Positions 1,540-18,023 of a stretch of DNA of 64,000 nt are shown here, in pieces. How positions within the stretch are numbered: position 1 is the stretch's first letter; each line of letters starts with the position of its first letter. Both the position numbers and the translations under genes were made by a program. Under the pieces are notes generated by a model, which ran no database searches, was not told the DNA's origin, and saw only the letters and a program-made list of their open reading frames with translations. Origin of the DNA: Thermosipho ferrireducens (GTDB lineage: Bacteria; Thermotogota; Thermotogae; Thermotogales; Fervidobacteriaceae); the NCBI RefSeq assembly GCF_017358165.1, contig NZ_CP071446.1:930001-994000 (forward strand). Direction: 5' to 3'.

Positions 1540-2004
1540 TTATTCTTTCCCACCATAATATTTATGATAAGCTATAAGAGCTTCGAAAAAATCTTTAAAT
1601 CTTTTAAAAGCTTCCTCATCTTTTTCAGATACTTTCAATACAAGAGTTTTTATTGAATCTACAAATTCCTTATTGCTAAACCCCTTCTTTTTAATGCTAT
1701 ACAAGAATACAGCCATAAATCTTTTTAATTCATATTTGTAATTTTCTGTGCTAATTCGTTTTACAAAACTAAAATATTTTCTTAATTGTGTAGAAGATAG
1801 TTCTTTTTTTTCATTTTCTTTTTTATCTTTCTTTGATTTTTCACCATTTTTAGAGTCCTTTTTTGGCGCGATTAGCTTTGCCAAGCTTTTAGAATATTCA
1901 AACAAAAGTTGACCATCTGGATCTTTTTTGTCATCTAAAATTTTATCTGCAAGTTCTTCATTAATTATAAATCTGTCGTTTTGTTTAACATATTCACCAT
2001 TCAT
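1540..2004 (-). CDS. csm2: Csm2, small helical subunit of the Csm complex
   Basis: The gene encodes 154 residues, mostly helical and lysine-rich, with the Csm2-type C-terminal part (LRKYFSFVKRI ... FKDFFEALIAYHKYYGG). The central KKDSKNGEKSKKDKKENEKK stretch is a low-complexity linker longer than in most Csm2 proteins. Csm2 lines the groove between crRNA and target. The start at 2004 (MNGEY) has a strong AGGAGGG site and overlaps the end of cas10 by 11 nt, which indicates translational coupling. The assignment rests on position and weak sequence similarity. Confidence 0.88.
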   Translation of the reverse strand: MNGEYVKQNDRFIINEELADKILDDKKDPDGQLLFEYSKSLAKLIAPKKDSKNGEKSKKDKKENEKKELSSTQLRKYFSFVKRISTENYKYELKRFMAVFLYSIKKKGFSNKEFVDSIKTLVLKVSEKDEEAFKRFKDFFEALIAYHKYYGGKE

Positions 2005-4273
2005 AATATCCCTCCTTTGTTTCGTATTCAACCCATAAAGTTACAGAACCTAATTTTTCATATAACCTATTTCCATTTCTCAAAAATGTGTTACTGTGTA
2101 TAAGATTATCAATTGATTCTTTTGCATTTTTATATCTTTCCTTTAATCTCGTTAAATAATAAAATAGTCTCCATACTTTGAATATATCTTTTGATTTTTT
2201 TGAATCTTCATACATTTTTCTCAAAACAAAGAGAATCGATTTTGTAACCTTTTTATCTGTAACAATATCAAATAACATTTCTTTCATATTCTTGTATTCT
2301 TCAAACTCTTCCCAACCTATAACATCCCCTAAGAAATATAACGCACTTTTTTCCAGATCCTTTCTTTTATACTCTTTGGCTTTATCTAAATAATCACCTG
2401 CAGAACTGGCAACCCTATACACCGGAAATTTCTTTGCGGGGGCAATATCTATTGCCATTGAAATAGATAGATCTGGATTTTTTCCACAATATCTTTTAAA
2501 ACTCATATTTAGATCTTCAGCTAATGGAATTAACTCACTCCAAGGGCCAAGAATAAAAAAGTCATCCCCTCCTGAATAAATAACACTTGAATGCTTATAT
2601 TTTTGAGAGACAATATCTTCAAGAAATTTACCAAAAAATTCTTCCAGCTCTGAGGATAAAGTTGCAATTTTTGAAATTGGAGCTTTTTCACCTAAACCCT
2701 TATGAAAAATTGTTCCCAGATTATCAACATCTCCCCTTAACACCCCCCATCTTTTTAAACCTTTTGAACTACTAGCTATGGTTTCTAAATCAGAAACATT
2801 ATTATTTTCCAATTTACATACATAATTCGCAGTCTTTAAATAATATTTAGCTGTTTTTAAATTTATTTCTCCAACTTTTTCAATTAAGTATGCATCTTTT
2901 GAAGCATTTTTAGGAAATTCTATATCATATCCGAATTTATTAAATACTTTTCTGTACGAATCAATTTGTTCTATTTTTGAATTGAATGTTTTAAACCTTA
3001 AATATTTGCTCTTAGATAATTCTTGACCTAGTTCAGCGAATGATTCACAAAAACTACAAATTCCAGCCTCATTAGTATCCCTTCTACAATACGGACATGA
3101 AAATTCATTTAATTTTTTAAATTTTTCATTAAATATTTTCTCAATGATAGTATCATAATTTCTATTTTTCCTTTTTTCTAATTCTTCAGAGACTTTTTGA
3201 AAAATTTCACCAGTTAATTCATTTAATCCTAACTTAACCCCCCCAAGATGCACTGACAATTCAAGCCCATGCGCCTCATACATGACTCTATCAATATATT
3301 CTTGATACTTTCTTAAATTATTGATTGTCTTTGCTGGAACAATTAAATAAAAATGACCTCCACCATTAAATAATATGTTTGAAATGGTTAAACCTTCTTT
3401 TTCTACTATATATCTTGCGATTATTTCCATTAAATACGAAACATAGAAAGATCTTCCCCTTAATTTCTTTACCGCACCTTCTTGAGAAATGTTATAAATG
3501 AAATTTTGTATACCTGAAATATCTCCTTTTACAAACCCCAAAACCTTTTCATCATTTAAATCATTAACCAAATACTGCTCAAGGAGATCTAATGGTTTTT
3601 CATTGTTATTTTTTAAATCTTCTTCAAACTGCTTGAACAGACCCACCGCAATAGCTGCCGTAGTAGTTAAATGTGAAAACAAGGAAATATCAGGTTTTGA
3701 ATAATAAAATGCTGATGGAATATTGGAAGTATATTCTTTCAAAATATAATACATGCGTTCAAAATCATCTTCATTAACAATTAATTGTGAAAACTCTTCC
3801 CATAACTTTCTATATGAATTTTCCACATTTTCTTCTTCATTCTCGATTAAATCAGTAAATTTTGATAATTTTGTTATTTTTTTATATTTTGGATTAGAGG
3901 AATTTCTTTTTAATTTTACTTCTGAAAGTATGGAAACCATATTTTTTATTTTTTCTTCATTTTCAATATCTTCTCTCTCGGATGACGAAACTCTATCTGC
4001 TATTCTAATTAATCTTGACAAAATATTATTAGGTTTGTGATGATTTAAGATAGCAGCTTCTACCTCATCTTTAAAAGGCAAATTAGAATTTTTATAAAAA
4101 TACGCCCCCCATTCTTGATGCCTGGGAGAAAATGCGTTATCTTGTTTGATAAAATATTCATATTCTTTTAATATTTCTTTTTTTATTTTTGAGTTCTTTG
4201 TTCTCTGATAAAATTTTCCTATATCATGAAAAATTCCTGCTAAAAATATTGTTTCTGTCGATAGAATACCCAT
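1994..4273 (-). CDS. cas10: Cas10/Csm1, HD nuclease and cyclic-oligoadenylate synthase
   Basis: This is the large subunit of the type III-A complex. An N-terminal HD motif (GIFHDIGKFYQR) marks the ssDNase domain. A zinc ribbon (CPYCRRDTNEAGICSFC) sits in the middle, and an intact palm motif YSGGDDFF (GGDD at about residues 568-571) marks the cyclase that makes cyclic oligoadenylate when target RNA is bound. Both catalytic centres look intact, so signalling to the Csx1 and SAVED effectors upstream in the operon is expected. The start at 4273 (MGILS) is preferred over 4291 because AAGGGGTG precedes it. A 73-bp gap separates it from csx1. Confidence 0.96.
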   Translation of the reverse strand: MGILSTETIFLAGIFHDIGKFYQRTKNSKIKKEILKEYEYFIKQDNAFSPRHQEWGAYFYKNSNLPFKDEVEAAILNHHKPNNILSRLIRIADRVSSSEREDIENEEKIKNMVSILSEVKLKRNSSNPKYKKITKLSKFTDLIENEEENVENSYRKLWEEFSQLIVNEDDFERMYYILKEYTSNIPSAFYYSKPDISLFSHLTTTAAIAVGLFKQFEEDLKNNNEKPLDLLEQYLVNDLNDEKVLGFVKGDISGIQNFIYNISQEGAVKKLRGRSFYVSYLMEIIARYIVEKEGLTISNILFNGGGHFYLIVPAKTINNLRKYQEYIDRVMYEAHGLELSVHLGGVKLGLNELTGEIFQKVSEELEKRKNRNYDTIIEKIFNEKFKKLNEFSCPYCRRDTNEAGICSFCESFAELGQELSKSKYLRFKTFNSKIEQIDSYRKVFNKFGYDIEFPKNASKDAYLIEKVGEINLKTAKYYLKTANYVCKLENNNVSDLETIASSSKGLKRWGVLRGDVDNLGTIFHKGLGEKAPISKIATLSSELEEFFGKFLEDIVSQKYKHSSVIYSGGDDFFILGPWSELIPLAEDLNMSFKRYCGKNPDLSISMAIDIAPAKKFPVYRVASSAGDYLDKAKEYKRKDLEKSALYFLGDVIGWEEFEEYKNMKEMLFDIVTDKKVTKSILFVLRKMYEDSKKSKDIFKVWRLFYYLTRLKERYKNAKESIDNLIHSNTFLRNGNRLYEKLGSVTLWVEYETKEGYYEW

Positions 4274-4346
4274 ATTTTCACCCCTTACCATTATTTACAT
4301 ATCTAATTAAGTTCGATGTTTATATAAATTCTCAGCAACATCTCTT

Positions 4347-5735
4347 CTAACGTGCTAAACCAAGTATTTTCTTAACATCTGGGATTATAAAAACTTCAGA
4401 GTTTTCCTTTAATATTTTGAATGTTTTACTGGACATACCTGAATGAGCAAGGAAATTTCTTTTCTCGTCAAAATCAGAGTTTTTAACTTTTGTATTTTCT
4501 GTTTTGTTAAAACCCTCAGTATTTTTACCTTGAGCAAGCATTTTTATTTTGTTATAATCATATATCATCTCTTCTCCATCTTTTATATAAGGAAAGTTTT
4601 TTTCAAGCTCTTTAATCTCTTTATTTAAAAAAGAAGAAACCTGTGATTTACCTAAATTATCTTTGATTTTCCAGATGAAATTAATCATTTCCTTCAACTT
4701 ACTAAATAGAATTTTTTCGGTTTCAATTTTTCCAAACAGTTCTTCAAAGTGCTCCATAAACAATTGAGAGAATATTATATCTTTTAACCCACTGGATAAT
4801 TCTAATTTTCTAAGAACTTCACACACTTCCTCATTATTTTTTACCTCAATGAATTCTCTAAATAGGTTTATAATTTGATCAATAAATCCTTTATACTTTA
4901 TTTTCTTATGAACGATGATAAACAGAAGTGGGAGACCGTAATAAATTGATTTTAGAAAAAGATGTGAATTTTCGAGGGTATTTCTAACTGCTTCTTTTCT
5001 CGTTTCTATGATTTCACCAAGCTTTGAAAAAACTCTTTTATTAACTTCAATTTTCATTTCTTTTGGAAGTTTACTATATGGATTTGAAACCCTTTTTTTA
5101 ACTTCAGATTCAAAAATGACGTTTTGCACTATGTCTTTTTCTTCGATAATGTGAATATTTGGTGTATTTGTAGAAAACACAGGTTCTGAATTTACTACAA
5201 CAAGTTTCACAGGTTTAAAATATGCTATTACTCCAAGTATTTCATTTAGTGCTCTATATAAAATATTTGATTGATAATTAATGCCCAGGCTAATATCAAA
5301 AATGACTTTCAATTCTTTCGATTTTATAATTTCTTTTGAAGTGAATATCTTATACATTTCATATAATGCTAAAAAATACGCGTCTGTCACATTTCCCATA
5401 AAATGACAATTTTGATAAACTCCTACTCCTGGAATTATGTGAACATCAACATCTTGAGCATTTACTTTTTTATCCGTCTTTTCATTTGCTTTTTTGAGAA
5501 AATATTCTTTATATTCCTTCTTTAATTCCTTGCACATTTCGCCATAATCATTATTTATTTTGGAAAGAGTGTCCAATAAGAAAATACTTGTTAAACTGAT
5601 ATCAAAAAAATCTATCAATAATTTCTGCAGAAAATGTCCATTTTTTTCTTTATCATCATGATGTATAGTGTAAACAATGTCTTCTTTATACTGCCTTATA
5701 TTTCCCAGAGAACAAATTAATATGTTCACAATCAA
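4347..5735 (-). CDS. csx1: Csx1-family CARF-HEPN ribonuclease
   Basis: The N-terminal half is CARF-like: it opens with a beta strand and glycine turn (NILICSLGN) and carries FDISLGINYQSN, the second CARF signature of TM1812/Csx1 proteins. The C-terminus has the HEPN motif RNFLAHSG (R426, H431), the RNase active site. It should be switched on by cyclic oligoadenylate from Cas10 and cut RNA non-specifically. The first in-frame start is TTG at 5735, directly after the calpL stop; GTG at 5729 has better spacing from the GGGGG ribosome site and may be the real start. It shares the operon with the SAVED-Lon protease, so one Cas10 may feed two sensors. Confidence 0.88.
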   Translation of the reverse strand: MIVNILICSLGNIRQYKEDIVYTIHHDDKEKNGHFLQKLLIDFFDISLTSIFLLDTLSKINNDYGEMCKELKKEYKEYFLKKANEKTDKKVNAQDVDVHIIPGVGVYQNCHFMGNVTDAYFLALYEMYKIFTSKEIIKSKELKVIFDISLGINYQSNILYRALNEILGVIAYFKPVKLVVVNSEPVFSTNTPNIHIIEEKDIVQNVIFESEVKKRVSNPYSKLPKEMKIEVNKRVFSKLGEIIETRKEAVRNTLENSHLFLKSIYYGLPLLFIIVHKKIKYKGFIDQIINLFREFIEVKNNEEVCEVLRKLELSSGLKDIIFSQLFMEHFEELFGKIETEKILFSKLKEMINFIWKIKDNLGKSQVSSFLNKEIKELEKNFPYIKDGEEMIYDYNKIKMLAQGKNTEGFNKTENTKVKNSDFDEKRNFLAHSGMSSKTFKILKENSEVFIIPDVKKILGLAR

Positions 5736-7166
5736 TTACCCCCTTATATCTTCAATTTTAAATGCTTCAATGTATCCCCCTTCGTTTTTATCGTATTGAT
5801 ATATTATTCCTTTTGAAAAATCTCCATAAGCCATACCAAATCCAAACGCAATAGGTAAAGGGCAACTCATAAAAAAATAATTTCTTGCACACTCATATTT
5901 TGATTTCACATTTTGAGTTACACTCATCATTTCAGATACTATATCTGACCAATCGTCTATCTTAATATTTCCTTTCCCATGCTGGTATTCTATAAAAACC
6001 ATTTTTGCATTTAGTTTATTTTTCTCAATAAACAGCTCTGCATCTTTTCTTGGACTATGAGAAGCTAAATAAATAACAAAAGCACAATTTTTACCAGAGC
6101 CTTTTATGGAGTAATTAATTTGTTTATAATCATTTCTTATTGTTTTTATTTTCCTAATATTATCAGTCAAATCTAAAACTGGATAATATTCTGTTTGTCC
6201 ATGATAAAAAACTACCGGGTTGTGTGGACCTAATGCTATTCCTAAAGCCATCGCCATTGCAACAGGACCAATCATTGCTACATGTGGAACTCCTCTTTTG
6301 GAAATAATGTCGAATAAAACTTCTTTTGCTTTTTTTAGTGAATTTTCCCACTCATCTTTTTTTATACTTTTTGACACATAGATTTTCTTTATATCAAATA
6401 TCTTTTCAAAAATATTTACATATTTCAAAGGGTATTTCCTTGCCACTGCTTCTTTAAGTCTTTCGTATGAAGCTTCTATATAATCTTGATCAAGCTCTTT
6501 GAATACAAGTAAAACTGGTACATGGTATTTTTTTGCTTCAAAAAAGTCTTTTAATTCGTAAACGTCATTTATATCAAGAGCACTAATCAACTTTATCCCA
6601 GATTCTTCACATATCTTTTGCTTCAACTCAATATGGCTTACATTGCTTTTTACTTTTCCATTTTCAATAACTTCTCCAGAAAATGCTATATTATCTGGAA
6701 GTTTATTTACAAGTGCACCTATTGTCACCGCCAGCATATACGACTTACCTGAAAATTCATCATCAAATATGACTCCCAGGGTCTTATTAACTATTTTTTC
6801 TATATCCTTTATCTCCTCATAAAGCTCTGGAATATTAACATATGTTTTTGTTGTTTCAAATACAAGAGCTCTAACAATTTTTCCATTACTATTTCCAACT
6901 ATAGGGAACATAACTTCGGTAAATTTATTTCTATACATATCAACCGCGATTTCTTCATCAGTCATGAGCTTTACTAAGAAATTAAGTGCAATTGCCTTAT
7001 TTTTATAATTGACAAGTTTTTTAACTATTTCAAAAAAAACATATTCTTTTCCAAAAAAATCACCTGCATTTAAATAAGTTTCTACAGCTTCCTGAAAAGT
7101 TATTTGATCGCCTTTAAAAAGTTTTACAAAAGCTATTGGATCGTCTCTCATAAATTCAGAATACAA
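5736..7166 (-). CDS. calpL: SAVED-Lon protease, CalpL-like cyclic-oligoadenylate-activated effector
   Basis: The protein has 476 residues without an AAA+ ATPase. Residues ~130-210 show a Lon-type (S16) protease core: SGKSYMLA carries the likely catalytic Ser142, FSGEV matches the conserved Lon strand, and IELKQKICEESGIKLI carries the likely Lys184. The Ser-Lys spacing of 42 is close to 43 in E. coli Lon. The C-terminal half looks like a SAVED sensor, with repeated P..A...G patterns (MIGPVAMAMALGIALGPHNP; CPLPIAFGFGMAYGDF), each followed by a YY/IYQY strand. CalpL of Sulfurihydrogenibium has this layout, binds cA4 and cleaves CalpT. The next upstream genes encode CalpT- and sigma-like proteins, which strongly supports the call. 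The start is TTG at 7166 behind GGGAGGG. Confidence 0.88.
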   Translation of the reverse strand: MYSEFMRDDPIAFVKLFKGDQITFQEAVETYLNAGDFFGKEYVFFEIVKKLVNYKNKAIALNFLVKLMTDEEIAVDMYRNKFTEVMFPIVGNSNGKIVRALVFETTKTYVNIPELYEEIKDIEKIVNKTLGVIFDDEFSGKSYMLAVTIGALVNKLPDNIAFSGEVIENGKVKSNVSHIELKQKICEESGIKLISALDINDVYELKDFFEAKKYHVPVLLVFKELDQDYIEASYERLKEAVARKYPLKYVNIFEKIFDIKKIYVSKSIKKDEWENSLKKAKEVLFDIISKRGVPHVAMIGPVAMAMALGIALGPHNPVVFYHGQTEYYPVLDLTDNIRKIKTIRNDYKQINYSIKGSGKNCAFVIYLASHSPRKDAELFIEKNKLNAKMVFIEYQHGKGNIKIDDWSDIVSEMMSVTQNVKSKYECARNYFFMSCPLPIAFGFGMAYGDFSKGIIYQYDKNEGGYIEAFKIEDIRG

Positions 7167-7168
7167 CT

Positions 7169-7960
7169 CTAACCCTCCCTTATAATCTTGAGATTTTTTC
7201 TAATTGTTTCATTATCTAAATCTGCAATGTTCTCGACAATTATTGTTTTTGGTAGCTTTCCTTCATATAAAACTTCATCTTTGAACACTATTTTTCCTTG
7301 TTTTCCTACAAATTCATCTTCTGGATAGATCTTTAAAACTTCCCCTTCAAAAATAGCAAGGAAATTATATCCTCTAATTCCCTCAGTTGCGGCAACCAAC
7401 CGTTCTTTGTTCAATCCACTTTTTAATTCTTCAGAAACAGATAAGATCACAATATTATTTTTTGTTTCCTCTTGAATTATTATTTTTTCCATTCTTTCGA
7501 AAAAGATTTCAAATAATTTACTCAATTTCTTAACTTCGATCTCAAAGAACTTCTTTCTGTAACCTGTATAAAATTCATTGTTCAGCTTTGTTGAATTTTC
7601 AATTATGTCCTTCAACTTTTCCTTTTCATTTTTAATCACTTCGCAGTGCTTTTCAGCAAAATCTTTAAATACATAAAACCTAATGTGCGTAATTGCTACT
7701 ATACTTACCAGATGATCCAATTCGATTCTTTTGGCAAGAGGACTTGCCAGGAAAAGTTCTGGTGTTAAATAAATACATTCGTACATTTCACCTATTTTTT
7801 CTGCAACAATTCCATATATTGGAAAATGTGTTGTATATATAACAAATATATCTCCTATTTTTAGTGTATTACTTTTAATTTCCTTGAACTTGTAATTTTC
7901 CTCTACTTTTTCCAGATTAAATTGCTTGTATAATTCAAATTCATCTTTTAGAAAGCTCAT
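7169..7960 (-). CDS. calpT: CalpT-like MazF-fold protein, likely protease substrate and sigma-factor sequestering partner
   Basis: The protein has 263 residues. Residues ~25-110 (LKIGDIFVIYTTHFPIYGIV...) read as a small SH3/MazF-like barrel. A long charged helix follows (~115-160), then a separate beta-rich C-terminal domain of about 95 residues. This division resembles CalpT, which the protease cuts into a large and a ~10 kDa fragment to release the sigma factor. Similarity to MazF is weak by eye; the call leans on gene order (sigma - this gene - SAVED-Lon) and size. It starts with ATG and AGGAGG at ideal spacing, 17 nt after the sigma gene and 2 nt before calpL. Confidence 0.72.
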   Translation of the reverse strand: MSFLKDEFELYKQFNLEKVEENYKFKEIKSNTLKIGDIFVIYTTHFPIYGIVAEKIGEMYECIYLTPELFLASPLAKRIELDHLVSIVAITHIRFYVFKDFAEKHCEVIKNEKEKLKDIIENSTKLNNEFYTGYRKKFFEIEVKKLSKLFEIFFERMEKIIIQEETKNNIVILSVSEELKSGLNKERLVAATEGIRGYNFLAIFEGEVLKIYPEDEFVGKQGKIVFKDEVLYEGKLPKTIIVENIADLDNETIRKNLKIIREG

Positions 7961-7977
7961 GATAACCTCCTGATTTT

Positions 7978-8631
7978 TTAATTTCTTTCCATATTATCAT
8001 TACGTATCTTTTCACACGTTTCTGACATAAATTTGCGTATCGCTATGGAAAACTCTATTTCCGATATTCCACTTTCTAAAACTAATTCTCTAAGTTTTTT
8101 CTTTATTCTTTCAACAATTTTATATTTCGCGCTTGCCGATTTTTCTTTAAACAATATTTCTTTAGAGTACATAGATTTATAAAAATAATAACATAAATGT
8201 TGAATATTCATCTGATTAAGTTCCTCAACAAACGCTTCTGCAATTATTTCACTTTCAGGGTTAACATTTCCTATATCATATATGAAACGTTCTTGCATGT
8301 TTTCCTCACCATCGTAAATTTCTTTATCCAATGAGTAAGTTTCACGAGATTTTCTTAAAATATCAACTATATGATTTTTTATCATTGTATATAAATACCC
8401 TTCAATTCCTTTTTCACATTTTAAGAAAAGATCTTTTTTTTCCTTTATTTTAATTAAAATATTATTTGTTATTTCATCAATTATTGAATCTTTGTTTCCA
8501 TATTTCCCAAGTAAAGTTTTTAGATAATAAGGGTTAGTATGTACAATTTTGCTAACTATATTTTGAATCGTTTCTAAAAACCTTTCAGTTAAAATATTGT
8601 TATTTATATAGTTTGACAGATCTTTTTTCAC
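7978..8631 (-). CDS. calpS: CalpS-like ECF-type sigma factor
   Basis: The protein has 217 residues. Residues ~50-104 match sigma region 2: DEITNNILIKIKEKKDLF followed by GYLYTMIKNHIVDILRK, the usual promoter-melting helix. Residues ~153-185 (YSKEILFKEKSASAKYKIVE then RIKKKLREL) fit a region-4 helix-turn-helix. There is no region 1 or 3, as in ECF sigmas. In the described system this protein is held by CalpT and freed on phage detection. The start is GTG at 8631 after GAGGTGG, overlapping nothing and directly following the upstream stop. The C-terminal ~30 residues beyond region 4 are of unknown role. The target promoters are unknown. Confidence 0.82.
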   Translation of the reverse strand: MKKDLSNYINNNILTERFLETIQNIVSKIVHTNPYYLKTLLGKYGNKDSIIDEITNNILIKIKEKKDLFLKCEKGIEGYLYTMIKNHIVDILRKSRETYSLDKEIYDGEENMQERFIYDIGNVNPESEIIAEAFVEELNQMNIQHLCYYFYKSMYSKEILFKEKSASAKYKIVERIKKKLRELVLESGISEIEFSIAIRKFMSETCEKIRNDNMERN

Positions 8632-8632
8632 T

Positions 8633-9052
8633 TCAATACCACCTCAACAGGAAGTCTTTTATACATTTCTTACATACCCCGCAACGTGTGAAAAATCTTT
8701 TCAAAAGTTCTTTTGGTATTAAAAATACATACCTATGATTATATTCAAACACATAAGACGGTTTTTGTTGGAACTTGCAAAATTCATCACTTGAAATATT
8801 ACAATCGTTCCATATATCTACTTTAATCTTTGAATAGTTTTTGGTTGATAAAAACATAATTTTACAGTTATTGCCGGAATTTTCAACTATAACTGGCCTT
8901 TTTTCACGCTCTCCTTGTTTAGAATTCCACAGCCCATCACCGATTTTTAATTCTTTAGAAAATGATTTTAAATCTTCTATAAAGCCTATAGAGGTTTTAT
9001 AGAGCTCCTTGTACTCAGGCTTAACGAAAATATCTTCGATAAGTTTCCGCAT
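8633..9052 (-). CDS. MazF/PemK-like small protein with C-terminal Cys motif, first gene of the calp-csm operon
   Basis: The protein has 139 residues. The middle part, IGDGLWNSKQGEREKRPVIV, resembles the GD.W...G.E...RP.(V/L)V entry of MazF/PemK toxins, followed by strands typical of that fold. The tail CGVCKKC suggests a metal site or a redox pair; other cysteines occur at NDC and EFC. It could be a second MazF-type partner of the sigma factor, a toxin, or an unrelated regulator. It starts with ATG and GGAGG and is followed 1 nt later by the sigma gene, so it is co-expressed with the cassette. It is not obviously a part of the described CalpL-T-S trio. Confidence 0.6.
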   Translation of the reverse strand: MRKLIEDIFVKPEYKELYKTSIGFIEDLKSFSKELKIGDGLWNSKQGEREKRPVIVENSGNNCKIMFLSTKNYSKIKVDIWNDCNISSDEFCKFQQKPSYVFEYNHRYVFLIPKELLKRFFTRCGVCKKCIKDFLLRWY

Positions 9053-9099
9053 TAAAAAACCTCCAAGTTTTATAATTAATTCCGTAACATTCCTGATAT

Positions 9100-9105
9100 A
9101 TTATA
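9100..9105 (-). promoter_or_regulatory. Candidate -10 box (TATAAT) of the calp-csx1-csm operon
   Basis: In the 69-bp gap between the cas2 stop and the first gene of the effector operon, the minus strand reads GTTATAATAT. No good -35 is visible 17 nt upstream. It is the only gap of this kind between the adaptation genes and the effector genes, so a promoter here is plausible but unproven. Confidence 0.4.
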
Positions 9106-9121
9106 ACATATACGTTTCTAA

Positions 9122-9400
9122 TTATAAAATATTACTTGAAACATTCCATTTTTCTGTCCCATCAACCTCTTTTTTTATCACATTTTTCGAATTAAAAAAA
9201 TAAATGACAATATTATCTTCTTCTGGATTTATTTTCCTCTTTATTTCCCCTATCATCTTTTTTATGTTAGATTGTGTTATATATCCTTCAAAAGTAGAAT
9301 TTTGCTGCCAGATAATGTACTTTTTCAAAATTTTGTGAATTTTATTCACTCTTTTTTCGTTAATATCATACACAACCAATACGTACTTAATATCTATCAC
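9122..9400 (-). CDS. cas2: Cas2 (first copy, downstream of cas1)
   Basis: The protein has 92 residues with the Cas2 ferredoxin-like opening YVLVVYDINEKRVNKIHKIL and the dimer-helix part WQQNSTFEGYI. Cas2 pairs with Cas1 to integrate spacers. It begins with GTG in a GTGA overlap with the cas1 stop, so it is coupled to cas1. Its C-terminal tail (KKEVDGTEKWNVSSNIL) differs from the other cas2 at 10395-10655. Confidence 0.93.
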   Translation of the reverse strand: MIDIKYVLVVYDINEKRVNKIHKILKKYIIWQQNSTFEGYITQSNIKKMIGEIKRKINPEEDNIVIYFFNSKNVIKKEVDGTEKWNVSSNIL

Positions 9401-10383
9401 TCTCCCAAACGGAATCCTTTAAATTTTTCCTCTCCTTTAAGATGCCTGATAAGTTTATAACATTCATGCAAAATTACTGTTTTAAAAGATACCTTGTTGT
9501 CATTATATAGAGTTACTTTATGCTCAAGTCTTTTTTCAAATTCTTCAACGAACTTCTTTTTCCCTTTCCCGGATAAATAAACACCGTTCTTCACTTCCTC
9601 AAAATCTTCTTTCTTTATGACATTTGAATTTATCACTTTTAATATTACTTTATCAACAATAATTGGTTTAAAAATTTCCGCTATATCAAGCTGTAATGAG
9701 AATTTTCGTTTATTTGGCTCGTGTAAAAAACTTATACTTGGTTCAAGCGAAGTTTTATATATTTCAGCTAACACAATGTTATACAAAATGGTATTTCCAA
9801 AACTTATCAATGCATTTACTTCATCTTTTGGAGGATTCTTTCTTCTTTCTTCAAATTCAAAATCTTTTTTTCCTACTATTTTTCCAATAGCTTTATAATA
9901 AGTTTTTCGAATATTTCCTTCTATAGCCATTAACGCTGCTATATTCTTTTGTCTTTCAAATGTACCTTTCAATTTTTTTACATAATTTATCTCTCGTTGT
10001 ACTAATTTTTTATAGTTTTTAAGAACATACAACATATTATCCACAGCTGCTTCTAAAATAGATTTTGCAATTTCAAGTCTACGCTTTATATCCATATAAT
10101 GATTAAATTGAAGAATAAGCATTTCGCCTGTTTTGTTAATTTCTCGTGGATAAAAACTTCCTAAAAAATTCCCATAGTAATTGTAAAAAAATATTGGAAT
10201 ACCCTCTTTTGATAACAAATCTAAAAAACGTTTATTCATGGTTACTTCAGAAAACACCATAATCGAGGAAAAACTTTTTAATGGAATAAATATAGCTTTT
10301 TCACTCTTTTTCAAAGGGATCAAGTACAAAGCACTATTTTTTCTTTTTAACTCGCCATCTGTAAAAATATATAATGTTTCCAT
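9397..10383 (-). CDS. cas1: Cas1 integrase
   Basis: The protein has 328 residues with the two-part Cas1 fold: an N-terminal beta domain (METLYIFTDGELKRKNSALY) and a helical catalytic domain. The expected metal-site regions are visible at NALISFGNTILYN and at FLHEPNKRKFSLQLDIAE (His and Asp). It catalyses spacer insertion at the leader-proximal repeat. No reverse-transcriptase domain is fused. It lies between two cas2 genes, 11 nt downstream of the first of them and overlapping the second by 4 nt. Confidence 0.96.
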   Translation of the reverse strand: METLYIFTDGELKRKNSALYLIPLKKSEKAIFIPLKSFSSIMVFSEVTMNKRFLDLLSKEGIPIFFYNYYGNFLGSFYPREINKTGEMLILQFNHYMDIKRRLEIAKSILEAAVDNMLYVLKNYKKLVQREINYVKKLKGTFERQKNIAALMAIEGNIRKTYYKAIGKIVGKKDFEFEERRKNPPKDEVNALISFGNTILYNIVLAEIYKTSLEPSISFLHEPNKRKFSLQLDIAEIFKPIIVDKVILKVINSNVIKKEDFEEVKNGVYLSGKGKKKFVEEFEKRLEHKVTLYNDNKVSFKTVILHECYKLIRHLKGEEKFKGFRLGE

Positions 10384-12148: not shown

Positions 12149-12176
12149 ACCCGCGGTTTAATCCGCGGGTTTTAAT
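12149..12176 (+). terminator. Strong hairpin (possible terminator) between the small gene and array 1
   Basis: ACCCGCGG-TTTAAT-CCGCGGGT forms an 8-bp perfect stem followed on the plus strand by TTTAATTTAG. On the minus strand it is preceded by the end of CRISPR array 1. It could end transcription of the small gene or of the pre-crRNA. It starts ~3 bp before the first (leader-distal) repeat. Confidence 0.6.
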
Positions 12177-12179
12177 TTA

Positions 12180-13117
12180 GTTTTCATTCCTTATAGGTAG
12201 AAGCTAAACGAATTAATAGCTAATATTGGTCTGGATATTAGACCAAGGTTTTCATTCCTTATAGGTAGAAGCTAAACTTTTGGAAGAAAACAACATTAAA
12301 TACGAAAAACTTGAGTTTTCATTCCTTATAGGTAGAAGCTAAACTGAATTTTATTAAGAGTATTGACAGCATCGAGCAGGATTATGAGTTTTCATTCCTT
12401 ATAGGTAGAAGCTAAACGTATGTTGAGAACATTAATTACAGATAACGTCAAATTTGGGTTTTCATTCCTTATAGGTAGAAGCTAAACCATCAAATATGTT
12501 CTTAAAGAATTAGGGGTCACGCACAGAATAGGTTTTCATTCCTTATAGGTAGAAGCTAAACTTATTGTTGTTTTTAGAACTGGGCATGCAGAAGTAGAAT
12601 GGTTTTCATTCCTTATAGGTAGAAGCTAAACTTTATGTTTAGAAAAGTAATAATTGTTGATGACAGAAATTTGTTTTCATTCCTTATAGGTAGAAGCTAA
12701 ACATGTACCCTCTCACCCAATTTAGTTAAATGGGAGGAGGTGAGTTTTCATTCCTTATAGGTAGAAGCTAAACTATTATTACACCCAGCAATACGCACGT
12801 GACGTGATAGAGGTTTTCATTCCTTATAGGTAGAAGCTAAACAAACATTTGATTACTTCGAAGTAATTTTTCTCCCGTATAGGTTTTCATTCCTTATAGG
12901 TAGAAGCTAAACTTTTCTCTTCGGGGATTGAGATAGAAACAGATAATCATTTGTTTTCATTCCTTATAGGTAGAAGCTAAACGAAAACTAACAGTTACAT
13001 TGACACGGGTATCAAATAAGTTTTCATTCCTTATAGGTAGAAGCTAAACTCAACATATCGCAGCAAAGCTACTCAGATTACAGCGGAGTTTTCATTCCTT
13101 ATAGGTAGAAGCTAAAC
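12180..13117 (-). CRISPR. CRISPR array 1: 14 repeats, 13 spacers
   Basis: The 30-nt repeat begins GTTTTCATTCCTTAT and ends GTAGAAGCTAAAC on the plus strand; all 14 copies look identical. Copies begin at 12180, 12248, 12315, 12388, 12458, 12532, 12602, 12673, 12744, 12813, 12883, 12953, 13020 and 13088. Spacers are 37-44 nt. On the minus strand the repeat ends GGAATGAAAAC, the usual 3' end of type I/III repeats, and the shared leader lies at the right end, so transcription is on the minus strand and the newest spacer is at 13050-13087. Spacers can be read in frame on the plus strand, so the crRNAs would be antisense to such mRNAs. Confidence 0.98.
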
Positions 13118-13626: not shown

Positions 13627-14286
13627 TTAGAAACACTCATTAAGCAATTTAGAGTATTTTTTCTTGCCAATTCCTTCTAATTTCATCAAGTCTCTGAATC
13701 TCTCTATTTTTACACCTATTTTCTTTTCAAACAAAGTATCTTTTAAAAACAATTTATTTTCTACTTTTTTTATTGCATAATTTTCAACAGGACCACTATA
13801 CAGGTCAAGTGCTATAACAATTTTTAGATTTAAAGCATGTAAATAACGTACTATTAATTCTTCAACCTTATCCCACTTGAGCTTTCCTAAACCAGCTCCT
13901 AATTTTGGAATTACAATTGTTCTTACTTTATCTTCATTTATAAATTTTAATAGTTCTTTCAAACCTTTTTCTATCCACTCATACTTTGAAGGTAATTTAT
14001 AATCATCTTTAGTTGCCATGTTATATATTAATATTTTCTTTTTACTACGCTTTTCTGGAGCTAAAGAACTATAATAAGAAATATTTTGCTCTGATTTAAA
14101 TATTCCGCCAGGTTTTATTTCATTTTTCTGGCATAACTTTTTATACTCTTCATTCATTTCTGGAAACCTCAAAGCAAATTCTAATGCTAAACCTTTTCCC
14201 ATATACCCTTTTGTATTTATGGTATTAATTATAGCATCAGCAATATCGACATGTTCAAACACAGAATAAGGTGATAATTCAATCAT
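13627..14286 (-). CDS. darG: DarG-like macrodomain antitoxin
   Basis: The protein has 219 residues. The macrodomain covers ~1-160 (DIADAIINTINTKGYMGKGL, then PGGIFKSE and VIPKLGAGLGKLKW), matching ADP-ribosylglycohydrolases of the DarG/TARG1 class that strip ADP-ribose from thymidine in DNA. The C-terminal ~60 residues (ending KLEGIGKKKYSKLLNECF) would be the toxin-binding tail; it is shorter than in DarG of Mycobacterium. The gene follows the darT-like toxin by 1 nt. I chose ATG 14286 (GAGGAG 8 nt upstream) over GTG 14295. Confidence 0.88.
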   Translation of the reverse strand: MIELSPYSVFEHVDIADAIINTINTKGYMGKGLALEFALRFPEMNEEYKKLCQKNEIKPGGIFKSEQNISYYSSLAPEKRSKKKILIYNMATKDDYKLPSKYEWIEKGLKELLKFINEDKVRTIVIPKLGAGLGKLKWDKVEELIVRYLHALNLKIVIALDLYSGPVENYAIKKVENKLFLKDTLFEKKIGVKIERFRDLMKLEGIGKKKYSKLLNECF

Positions 14287-14287
14287 G

Positions 14288-15046
14288 TTAGTCACTCCTC
14301 AACCATGATTCAAAAAACAAATCTTTTATGTGATAACATTTCGTTTCAACAGGTATTTTATAGGGATATCGCTTCAAAATACTTTTAACTTTACCTAAAT
14401 TTGCATCTTTTACAAATATTCTTTTTACATATTTTAAAGGTACATAACCTAAGACCAAAACTTCAGATTGTATTATCTTTTTTAAATTATCATCATTTTT
14501 CCAGGAATCGCTCATTATTTTTTTTATGTTTAAATTAATCATCCTGGGATTTTCACTTATTTGCGCATCAGAAGCCGACGCATTTTTATATGAATAAAAA
14601 ATATGTCTGAAATCCTCCAAAATCCTATTTGAAATTTGTAAAACAGCAAAATTTACTTTTTTTACAATATATCTATACAACATAGCATTTCGTGGATTAA
14701 TATATAATCCTACAAAGTTATGGATATTATATTTCCTATATATGTACTTCTCTGCCCTTCGCTTTTGCACATTTTTATCAGATGGGTCATTTATTCTTTT
14801 TCCTTTTTTTAAAACATTGTTTCTGCATTCTATTTTACCAGATTTTATGATATTTTCCAAATTTTCAATAGGAACTATATAATACAAAAATTTAATATTT
14901 TCTATCTTTCTTATCCTCCCTTTTTTAAAAATATCAAAAATAAAGTTTAATTCTTCATACGTAAAACTTTCTGGGTAAGGGCGGAATACATACCCTAACC
15001 TTTTTAATTTTTCATTTATATAATTTATTAATTGGCTTTTCTCCAT
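14288..15046 (-). CDS. darT: DarT-like DNA ADP-ribosyltransferase toxin with an N-terminal extra domain
   Basis: Residues ~45-250 match DarT (DUF4433): the NAD-binding entry YYIVPIENLENIIKSGKIEC, the HNFVGLYINPRNAMLYRYI block, the SYKNASASDAQISENP block, and QSEVLVLGYVP with the likely catalytic Glu195. DarT adds ADP-ribose to thymidine in single-stranded DNA and can act in phage defence. The first ~45 residues (INEKLKRLGYVF...ESFTYEELNFIFDIF) are not usual for DarT and resemble the three small proteins encoded upstream. ATG 15046 is behind GAGGTG. Confidence 0.9.
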   Translation of the reverse strand: MEKSQLINYINEKLKRLGYVFRPYPESFTYEELNFIFDIFKKGRIRKIENIKFLYYIVPIENLENIIKSGKIECRNNVLKKGKRINDPSDKNVQKRRAEKYIYRKYNIHNFVGLYINPRNAMLYRYIVKKVNFAVLQISNRILEDFRHIFYSYKNASASDAQISENPRMINLNIKKIMSDSWKNDDNLKKIIQSEVLVLGYVPLKYVKRIFVKDANLGKVKSILKRYPYKIPVETKCYHIKDLFFESWLRSD

Positions 15047-15130
15047 CAAATTAATTCACCTCTATTAATTTTATTGCAATAAACAAAATTCTTACAAAGC
15101 CAAAGGTAGGTCAATCAACAATAGATAGAA

Positions 15131-17136: not shown

Positions 17137-17429
17137 TCTTTCAATGACCTTTTGTACCTTTTGTTACAATTTTGCCTTTTTCTCTTTTTGCTCTTGACTT
17201 ATTACCGGTGACTGATAAATATTATTCTTCTTCTATAAATATACTTGCACTCTTCATTGATAGAAGCTAAACAAAAAGGGGGGCCCTCCTCACCCATAAT
17301 CCGACATCTCCGCCCATTATCCCCACCCATCGTCCCCGTCACTCCCCATCCTTTACATCCTACTCCCTCATCAATTGTCATTTGTCATTCGCTTTTTTAT
17401 TCCCCCCTTACCCATCCTTACAACACATC
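17137..17429. other. IS right flank and degenerate CRISPR-like stretch
   Basis: After the transposase stop comes ~110 bp of AT-rich DNA probably containing the IS right end. Then CTTCATTGATAGAAGCTAAAC (split at 17250-17270) repeats the last 13 bases of the CRISPR repeat. The next ~155 bp is unusually C-rich on the plus strand (CCCACCC, CCCCGTCACTCCCC) and unlike the rest of the window. No gene is credible here. Confidence 0.6.
17250..17270 (-). repeat. Degenerate terminal CRISPR repeat
   Basis: The 3' part TAGAAGCTAAAC matches the array repeat exactly, while the 5' part is reduced to CTTCATTGA. It lies on the leader-distal side of array 2, where worn repeats are common. It could be the remnant of the oldest repeat, or the junction made when the IS inserted. 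Confidence 0.65.
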
Positions 17430-18023
17430 GTTTTCATTCCTTATAGGTAGAAGCTAAACAGAAAAGCCGCAAAGTACAAGGAGTGTGAGTTAACAAGAAA
17501 CAAGTTTTCATTCCTTATAGGTAGAAGCTAAACACGTAAATTACCGTCAAAATTGTTAAAAGTTATAAGAAAAGTTTTCATTCCTTATAGGTAGAAGCTA
17601 AACAGAAGATTTAAGCTATCAAGACTTAAGAATAGTTGAAGATTTGTTTTCATTCCTTATAGGTAGAAGCTAAACAAAATTACCATTATCGATGATAGGA
17701 ATTTTGTCCCCGGGAGTTTTCATTCCTTATAGGTAGAAGCTAAACAGGATTTGATGAAATTTGGTTTCTCCAAGATGGAAGTCTTGGTTTTCATTCCTTA
17801 TAGGTAGAAGCTAAACTAATTGTGTCGGCAATAGTAAAAAACGCCTTGCAAGATCGTTTTCATTCCTTATAGGTAGAAGCTAAACTGGTTAGCGATGAAG
17901 CAATTGATGTAGAAAAAGTTGAGTTTTCATTCCTTATAGGTAGAAGCTAAACAACAGTGAAAGTTTTTTTGACAGAGATAAGCTACTCTATAAGTTTTCA
18001 TTCCTTATAGGTAGAAGCTAAAC
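17430..18023 (-). CRISPR. CRISPR array 2: 9 repeats, 8 spacers, same repeat as array 1
   Basis: Repeat copies begin at 17430, 17504, 17574, 17646, 17716, 17787, 17856, 17923 and 17994; all look identical to array 1 repeats. Spacers are 37-44 nt. The leader (18024-18323) lies at the right end, so it is transcribed on the minus strand and the newest spacer is 17953-17993. The spacer at 17676-17715 encodes KITIIDDRNFVPG on the plus strand, close to the peptide encoded by a spacer in array 1. Confidence 0.98.

Follow-up and report, generated by a model that had tools for sequence, protein, structure and literature searches.

Introduction

What is the small gene that stands directly in front of the sigma-factor gene calpS at a type III CRISPR locus of Thermosipho ferrireducens, and does it belong to the Calp signalling pathway? 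In the accessible parts of the CalpL literature the pathway has three components (PMC11417357, PMC12751052, PMC11229360), with CalpT published as an anti-sigma factor (PMC11417357, PMC12751052, likewise in their accessible parts). The same parts of these three papers make no mention of a fourth component, and the papers that first described the two Calp systems may contain one. The gene, here termed mazL, was singled out in a preliminary description of a 64,000-nucleotide stretch of the T. ferrireducens genome (the window) as the first gene of a calp-csm operon, encoding an extra MazF/PemK-like protein.

The Locus and Its Gene Order

The mazL open reading frame (ORF) lies at 8633–9052 (−), with an ATG start and a GGAGG ribosome-binding site just 5′, and encodes 139 residues, as the preliminary description had it; the Arg-Pro motif (R52-P53, codons at 8894–8899 (−)) and the CGVCKKC tail (residues 124–130, 8663–8683 (−)) are likewise as described. 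The ORF is real: its occurrence in 18 genomes across two phyla and dN/dS ratios of 0.20 (L015/L016 pair) and 0.05 (L106/L107 pair) argue against a chance reading frame, and the ratios indicate purifying selection between close copies. Residues conserved in the family are R49, R52-P53, F67, S69-T70, F110 and the cysteines 84, 97, 124 and 127, while the “GD.W” start that had been read as MazF/PemK-like is particular to the window copy.

On the same strand mazL is followed by calpS (7978–8631 (−)), whose start lies 1 nt past the mazL stop codon, and then by calpT (7169–7960 (−), 263 residues), calpL (5736–7166 (−)), csx1 (4347–5735 (−), a CARF-HEPN RNase), cas10/csm1 (1994–4291 (−), with an HD domain and a GGDD motif, the likely source of cyclic oligoadenylate), csm2 and csm3. 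The naming of the operon as calp-csm holds. CalpL, a SAVED-Lon protease with S142 and K182 invariant among seven aligned sequences, matches the CalpL structure (PDB 7qda, E 9e-47); the CalpT family profile matches CalpT10 at its C-terminus (PDB 8b0u, E 7e-5); CalpS is an ECF-like sigma factor (best NCBIfam E 6e-8, below cutoff); and Csm1 is identified at E 6e-191. The locus thus has what defines the Calp systems of Sulfurihydrogenibium and Cloacimonas (PMC11417357, PMC12751052): a SAVED-Lon protease, an anti-sigma CalpT with a C-terminal CalpT10 domain, an ECF-like CalpS and an adjoining type III CRISPR locus. That mazL heads this operon is true of the run from mazL to csm3, but a same-strand cas2-cas1-cas2 group lies upstream past a 69-nt gap. 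At this gap, 5′ of mazL, stands a sigma-70-like promoter match with an extended −10 element (9100–9128 (−), TTTATA-17-TATAAT with TG), which is a consensus match only.

Elsewhere in the window, two CRISPR arrays (12154–13117 and 17245–18023) share the same repeat, GTTTTCATTCCTTATAGGTAGAAGCTAAAC, and each is followed by a copy of a duplicated 300-nt stretch (99%); an IS110-family transposase lies between them. Also between the arrays, at 13627–15049 (−), a DarT ADP-ribosyltransferase (PF14487, E 7e-30) adjoins a macro-domain protein (PF01661), the two forming a DarTG-like toxin-antitoxin pair.

Distribution of mazL and Linkage to calpS

Homologues of mazL occur in 12 of 103 genomes of the window's phylum and in 6 of 25 genomes of a second one (that of genome G197). 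Searched with the protein, 101 genomes of the window's phylum gave 11, including the window's own and all in the window's family; the ten other loci, once opened, each had mazL directly upstream of calpS, as did a further homologue (G028) added by a profile search. CalpL itself extends beyond the window's phylum, to G197 and others, and is found in 8 of the 25 genomes of G197's phylum, where five opened loci have a mazL homologue upstream of calpS (E 6e-10 to 7e-7); the sixth, in G197 itself, was recovered with a refined profile and is frameshifted. In all 18 genomes, across two phyla with otherwise different gene orders, mazL is directly upstream of calpS, with a gap or overlap within about 50 nt. 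As for the suggestion that this family always precedes calpS, every mazL does so, but not every calpS has a mazL. The preliminary description had named a lack of co-occurrence with the calp genes, together with a structure unrelated to MazF, as grounds for rejecting its proposal; co-occurrence is found. Co-occurrence of mazL and CalpL gives Fisher p values of 1e-11 and 2e-4, uncorrected for shared ancestry; in G404, G405 and G019 the contigs end before calpS, so that the presence of mazL there cannot be judged. In four genomes of the g3 group and in G028, calpL lies about 10 kb away beside cas1/cas10 and mazL is still with calpS and calpT, and mazL is therefore tied to these two genes rather than to calpL.

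Could mazL be an unrelated passenger, present in the operon by chance? It is missing from some calpST loci and damaged in two, as a passenger might be, but the unbroken linkage to calpS in two phyla, the purifying selection and the lack of any convincing copy away from a Calp locus in a profile search of 390 genomes make this very improbable. That search gave two weak extra matches, both inside a protein of about 1160 residues. No MazL was found in the phage and plasmid records searched; viral contigs, searched for CalpL only, gave no match, and a CalpL scan of genome contigs returned only two Thermosipho loci.

Four calpST loci lack mazL (L060, L061, L097 and L098, in genomes G005, G022, G242 and G379), two of them in Thermotogota and two in presumed Cloacimonadota, with calpL split in G022; the known Calp pathway hence runs without it. 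No mazL was detected in 125 genomes of G242's phylum, presumably Cloacimonadota, although an empty search is weak evidence for so diverged a family. A fourth conserved gene coupled to calpS thus sets the present loci apart from those of the presumed Cloacimonadota genomes searched. Since mazL lies beside the sigma-factor gene in 18 of 18 genomes, a fourth, optional part seems to belong to the three-protein pathway.

In two genomes a frameshifted mazL stands next to open calpS, calpT and calpL (G008, L017 at about 6000–6405; G197, L095 at about 12185–12660), and these frameshifts could be sequencing errors. Unless they are, CalpS probably stays silent without MazL, and a role as essential inhibitor of CalpS was set aside as unlikely; tolerance of a broken copy is rather what would be expected of an effector.

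Other features of the Calp loci deserve mention. In G011 (L016, about 6234–6911) it is calpS that is apparently frameshifted, at a run of A's and possibly through a sequencing error, with the mazL-type gene, calpT and calpL open. A separate CalpT10-like protein of 79–109 residues is encoded in four g3 genomes, close to cas2 in the same CRISPR locus and on the other strand (L018 11031–11270, L019 10868–11197, L020 11057–11386, L021 5911–6213); it could serve as a decoy for CalpL or as another docking protein. Several loci also encode proteins of 131–146 residues that resemble Csx20-type ring nucleases by eye (L060 6386–6826, L106 6820–7224, L108 12603–13001, L109 15–410); the one tested against Pfam gave no match.

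Relationship of MazL to MazF

By its sequence core, in which an Arg/Thr pair is kept, MazL looks like a distant cousin of MazF. Aligned by hhalign with 12 real MazFs, the MazL family scored 27.3 with 11 members and 27.9 with 16, values reached by none of 200 column shuffles (maxima 17.4 and 18.9, respectively), against 18.4 for the best unrelated family; with eight other families compared, CalpT was next best after MazF. The aligned core (residues 47–80, about 35 residues) lays the MazL Arg-Pro on that of MazF, and FLST, within F67-L-S-T-K71 (codons at 8840–8854 (−)), on the PITS/PLTS strand, so that R52 corresponds to MazF Arg25 and T70 to Thr48, which are the catalytic residues (PMC7354611); R52-P53 would thus match the Arg25-Pro26 catalytic/recognition pair (PMC7354611, PMC8634880). 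In the 16-member alignment R52 is conserved in 16/16 and T70 is Thr or Ser in 15/16, both being among the nine best-conserved columns; the sole exception at T70, an Ala, is the G008 copy, whose start is also frameshifted.

Other results mark the distance between the families. The window protein has no match to PF02452 (MazF/PemK), and searches of PDB, Pfam, NCBIfam and PADLOC with single sequences and profiles gave nothing for MazL beyond one sub-threshold PemK match, in one of the 16 members (E 0.063, 13.9 bits against a cutoff of 23.1, over the stretch from RP to FLTT). The fold search proposed in the preliminary description did not return MazF: the AlphaFold model of MazL (pLDDT 84) retrieves none in Foldseek, whereas a CalpT model used as control does: behind CalpT10 it brings up many MazF structures, with probabilities close to 1. 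Nothing came of a fold search against viral proteins, nor does the C-terminal half by itself resemble MazF to a significant degree. The MazF/PemK likeness is thus seen in the core profile and was not confirmed by the fold search, and the protein is termed MazF-like rather than a MazF. It further differs from MazF toxins in a shorter Arg-Thr hairpin, in a four-cysteine site and in having no adjoining MazE-like gene, its neighbours being cas2 and calpS. Gly18 and Glu20, required for RNase activity in one MazF (PMC8634880), have no conserved equivalents in MazL, which counts against reading it as an RNase.

A rival reading is a non-catalytic role, in which the MazF-like core of MazL would pair with the MazF-like domain of CalpT or grip CalpS, tightening the complex or tuning release. 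CalpT is itself a MazF-like protein turned anti-sigma factor, its N-terminal domain shows distant profile similarity to MazL over the same core (weaker than that of MazF, at 25.6, but above the shuffle maximum of 19.4), and the gene order and coupling with calpS would suit a complex subunit. A purely structural role, in contrast, needs no Arg/Thr pair, and this pair ranks with the best-conserved positions in both phyla; the frameshifted mazL genes tolerated beside open calpS, calpT and calpL also speak against it. A structural or regulatory partner is a serious contender, if a doubtful one. CalpT, for its part, has Tyr-Gly in the place of Arg-Pro, lacks the four-cysteine site and has helical and CalpT10 parts in addition. 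The two proteins seem to have parted ways: MazL, with its catalytic residues retained, would have remained an RNase, and CalpT, with its Arg lost, would have taken on the anti-sigma role.

The Cysteines of MazL

The CxxCxxC tail noted in the window protein proved to be part of a wider pattern: C124 and C127 are conserved and C130 is not, and most members have C84, C97, C124 and C127, among them the closer relatives of the window copy. In the second phylum a similar C-x4-C and C-x2-C pattern is found, and in the branch of g3 and G028 C84 and C127 persist, with other cysteines nearby but without C97 and C124. Judged from this pattern, the four cysteines are likely to form a zinc site. In MazF terms the first pair would lie in the loop that follows the catalytic strand, the second close to the C-terminus, so that zinc would staple the two together. 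For a zinc sensor that sets basal expression, as first proposed, nothing speaks beyond the cysteines themselves. The other two roles of the preliminary description, a partner of CalpS and CalpT and a toxin released by the protease, both stay viable.

The same cysteines would also suit a zinc-ribbon-like protein that binds nucleic acids and has a fold other than that of MazF, whether ToxN-like or new, serving as co-regulator at CalpS-dependent promoters. The MazL model, having no MazF match, has as its top Foldseek match the toxin ToxN (4ato), weakly (probability 0.20 as reported by Foldseek), and its predicted beta-alpha-beta-beta order of first elements resembles ToxN by eye. Membership of the ToxN/AbiQ family (PF13958), considered on the strength of that match, was rejected: the score against real ToxN sequences was 11.0, which 124 of 200 shuffles reached, and no tandem-repeat array of note, such as a toxI-like RNA antitoxin would need, was found at 7900–9600. 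With profile similarity to MazF, none of significance to ToxN and no toxI-like repeats upstream, a zinc-ribbon-like co-regulator is unlikely.

A Proposed Role for MazL

That the Calp (CRISPR-Lon) system has in MazL an accessory fourth subunit, which acts with CalpS and CalpT, is well supported, the linkage pointing to these two as its partners. Most likely MazL would be a MazF-type RNase that stays inactive until the action of CalpL. MazL would be a divergent MazF-superfamily protein with the Arg/Thr catalytic pair and a stapling four-cysteine, probably zinc, site, and would be co-translated with CalpS. The CalpS-CalpT complex would most likely bind it and hold it inactive, as MazE holds MazF. 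Cyclic tetra-adenylate made by Cas10 would then lead CalpL to cleave CalpT, whereupon the complex would fall apart and free both CalpS, for transcription, and MazL, for RNA cleavage, giving two outputs from one cut. Binding by CalpS and CalpT, release by CalpL, RNase activity and zinc are the parts of this scheme that we infer, and the whole of it, from accessory subunit to CalpL-released RNase, is held tentatively, as plausible but short of probable. A further idea, possible but rather unlikely, is that a MazF-type RNase has its antitoxin in an ECF sigma factor together with the matching anti-sigma factor, in which case a single CRISPR-triggered proteolytic cut would switch on a transcription programme and RNA degradation together.

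The finding bears on the action of CalpS during infection and on why CalpT resembles a MazF toxin. With the catalytic residues of MazF and its coupling to calpS, MazL suggests a toxin-antitoxin module as the origin of the Calp switch, from which both a sigma factor and an RNase may be set free. For in vitro reconstitutions, which so far have three components, MazL is a concrete addition.
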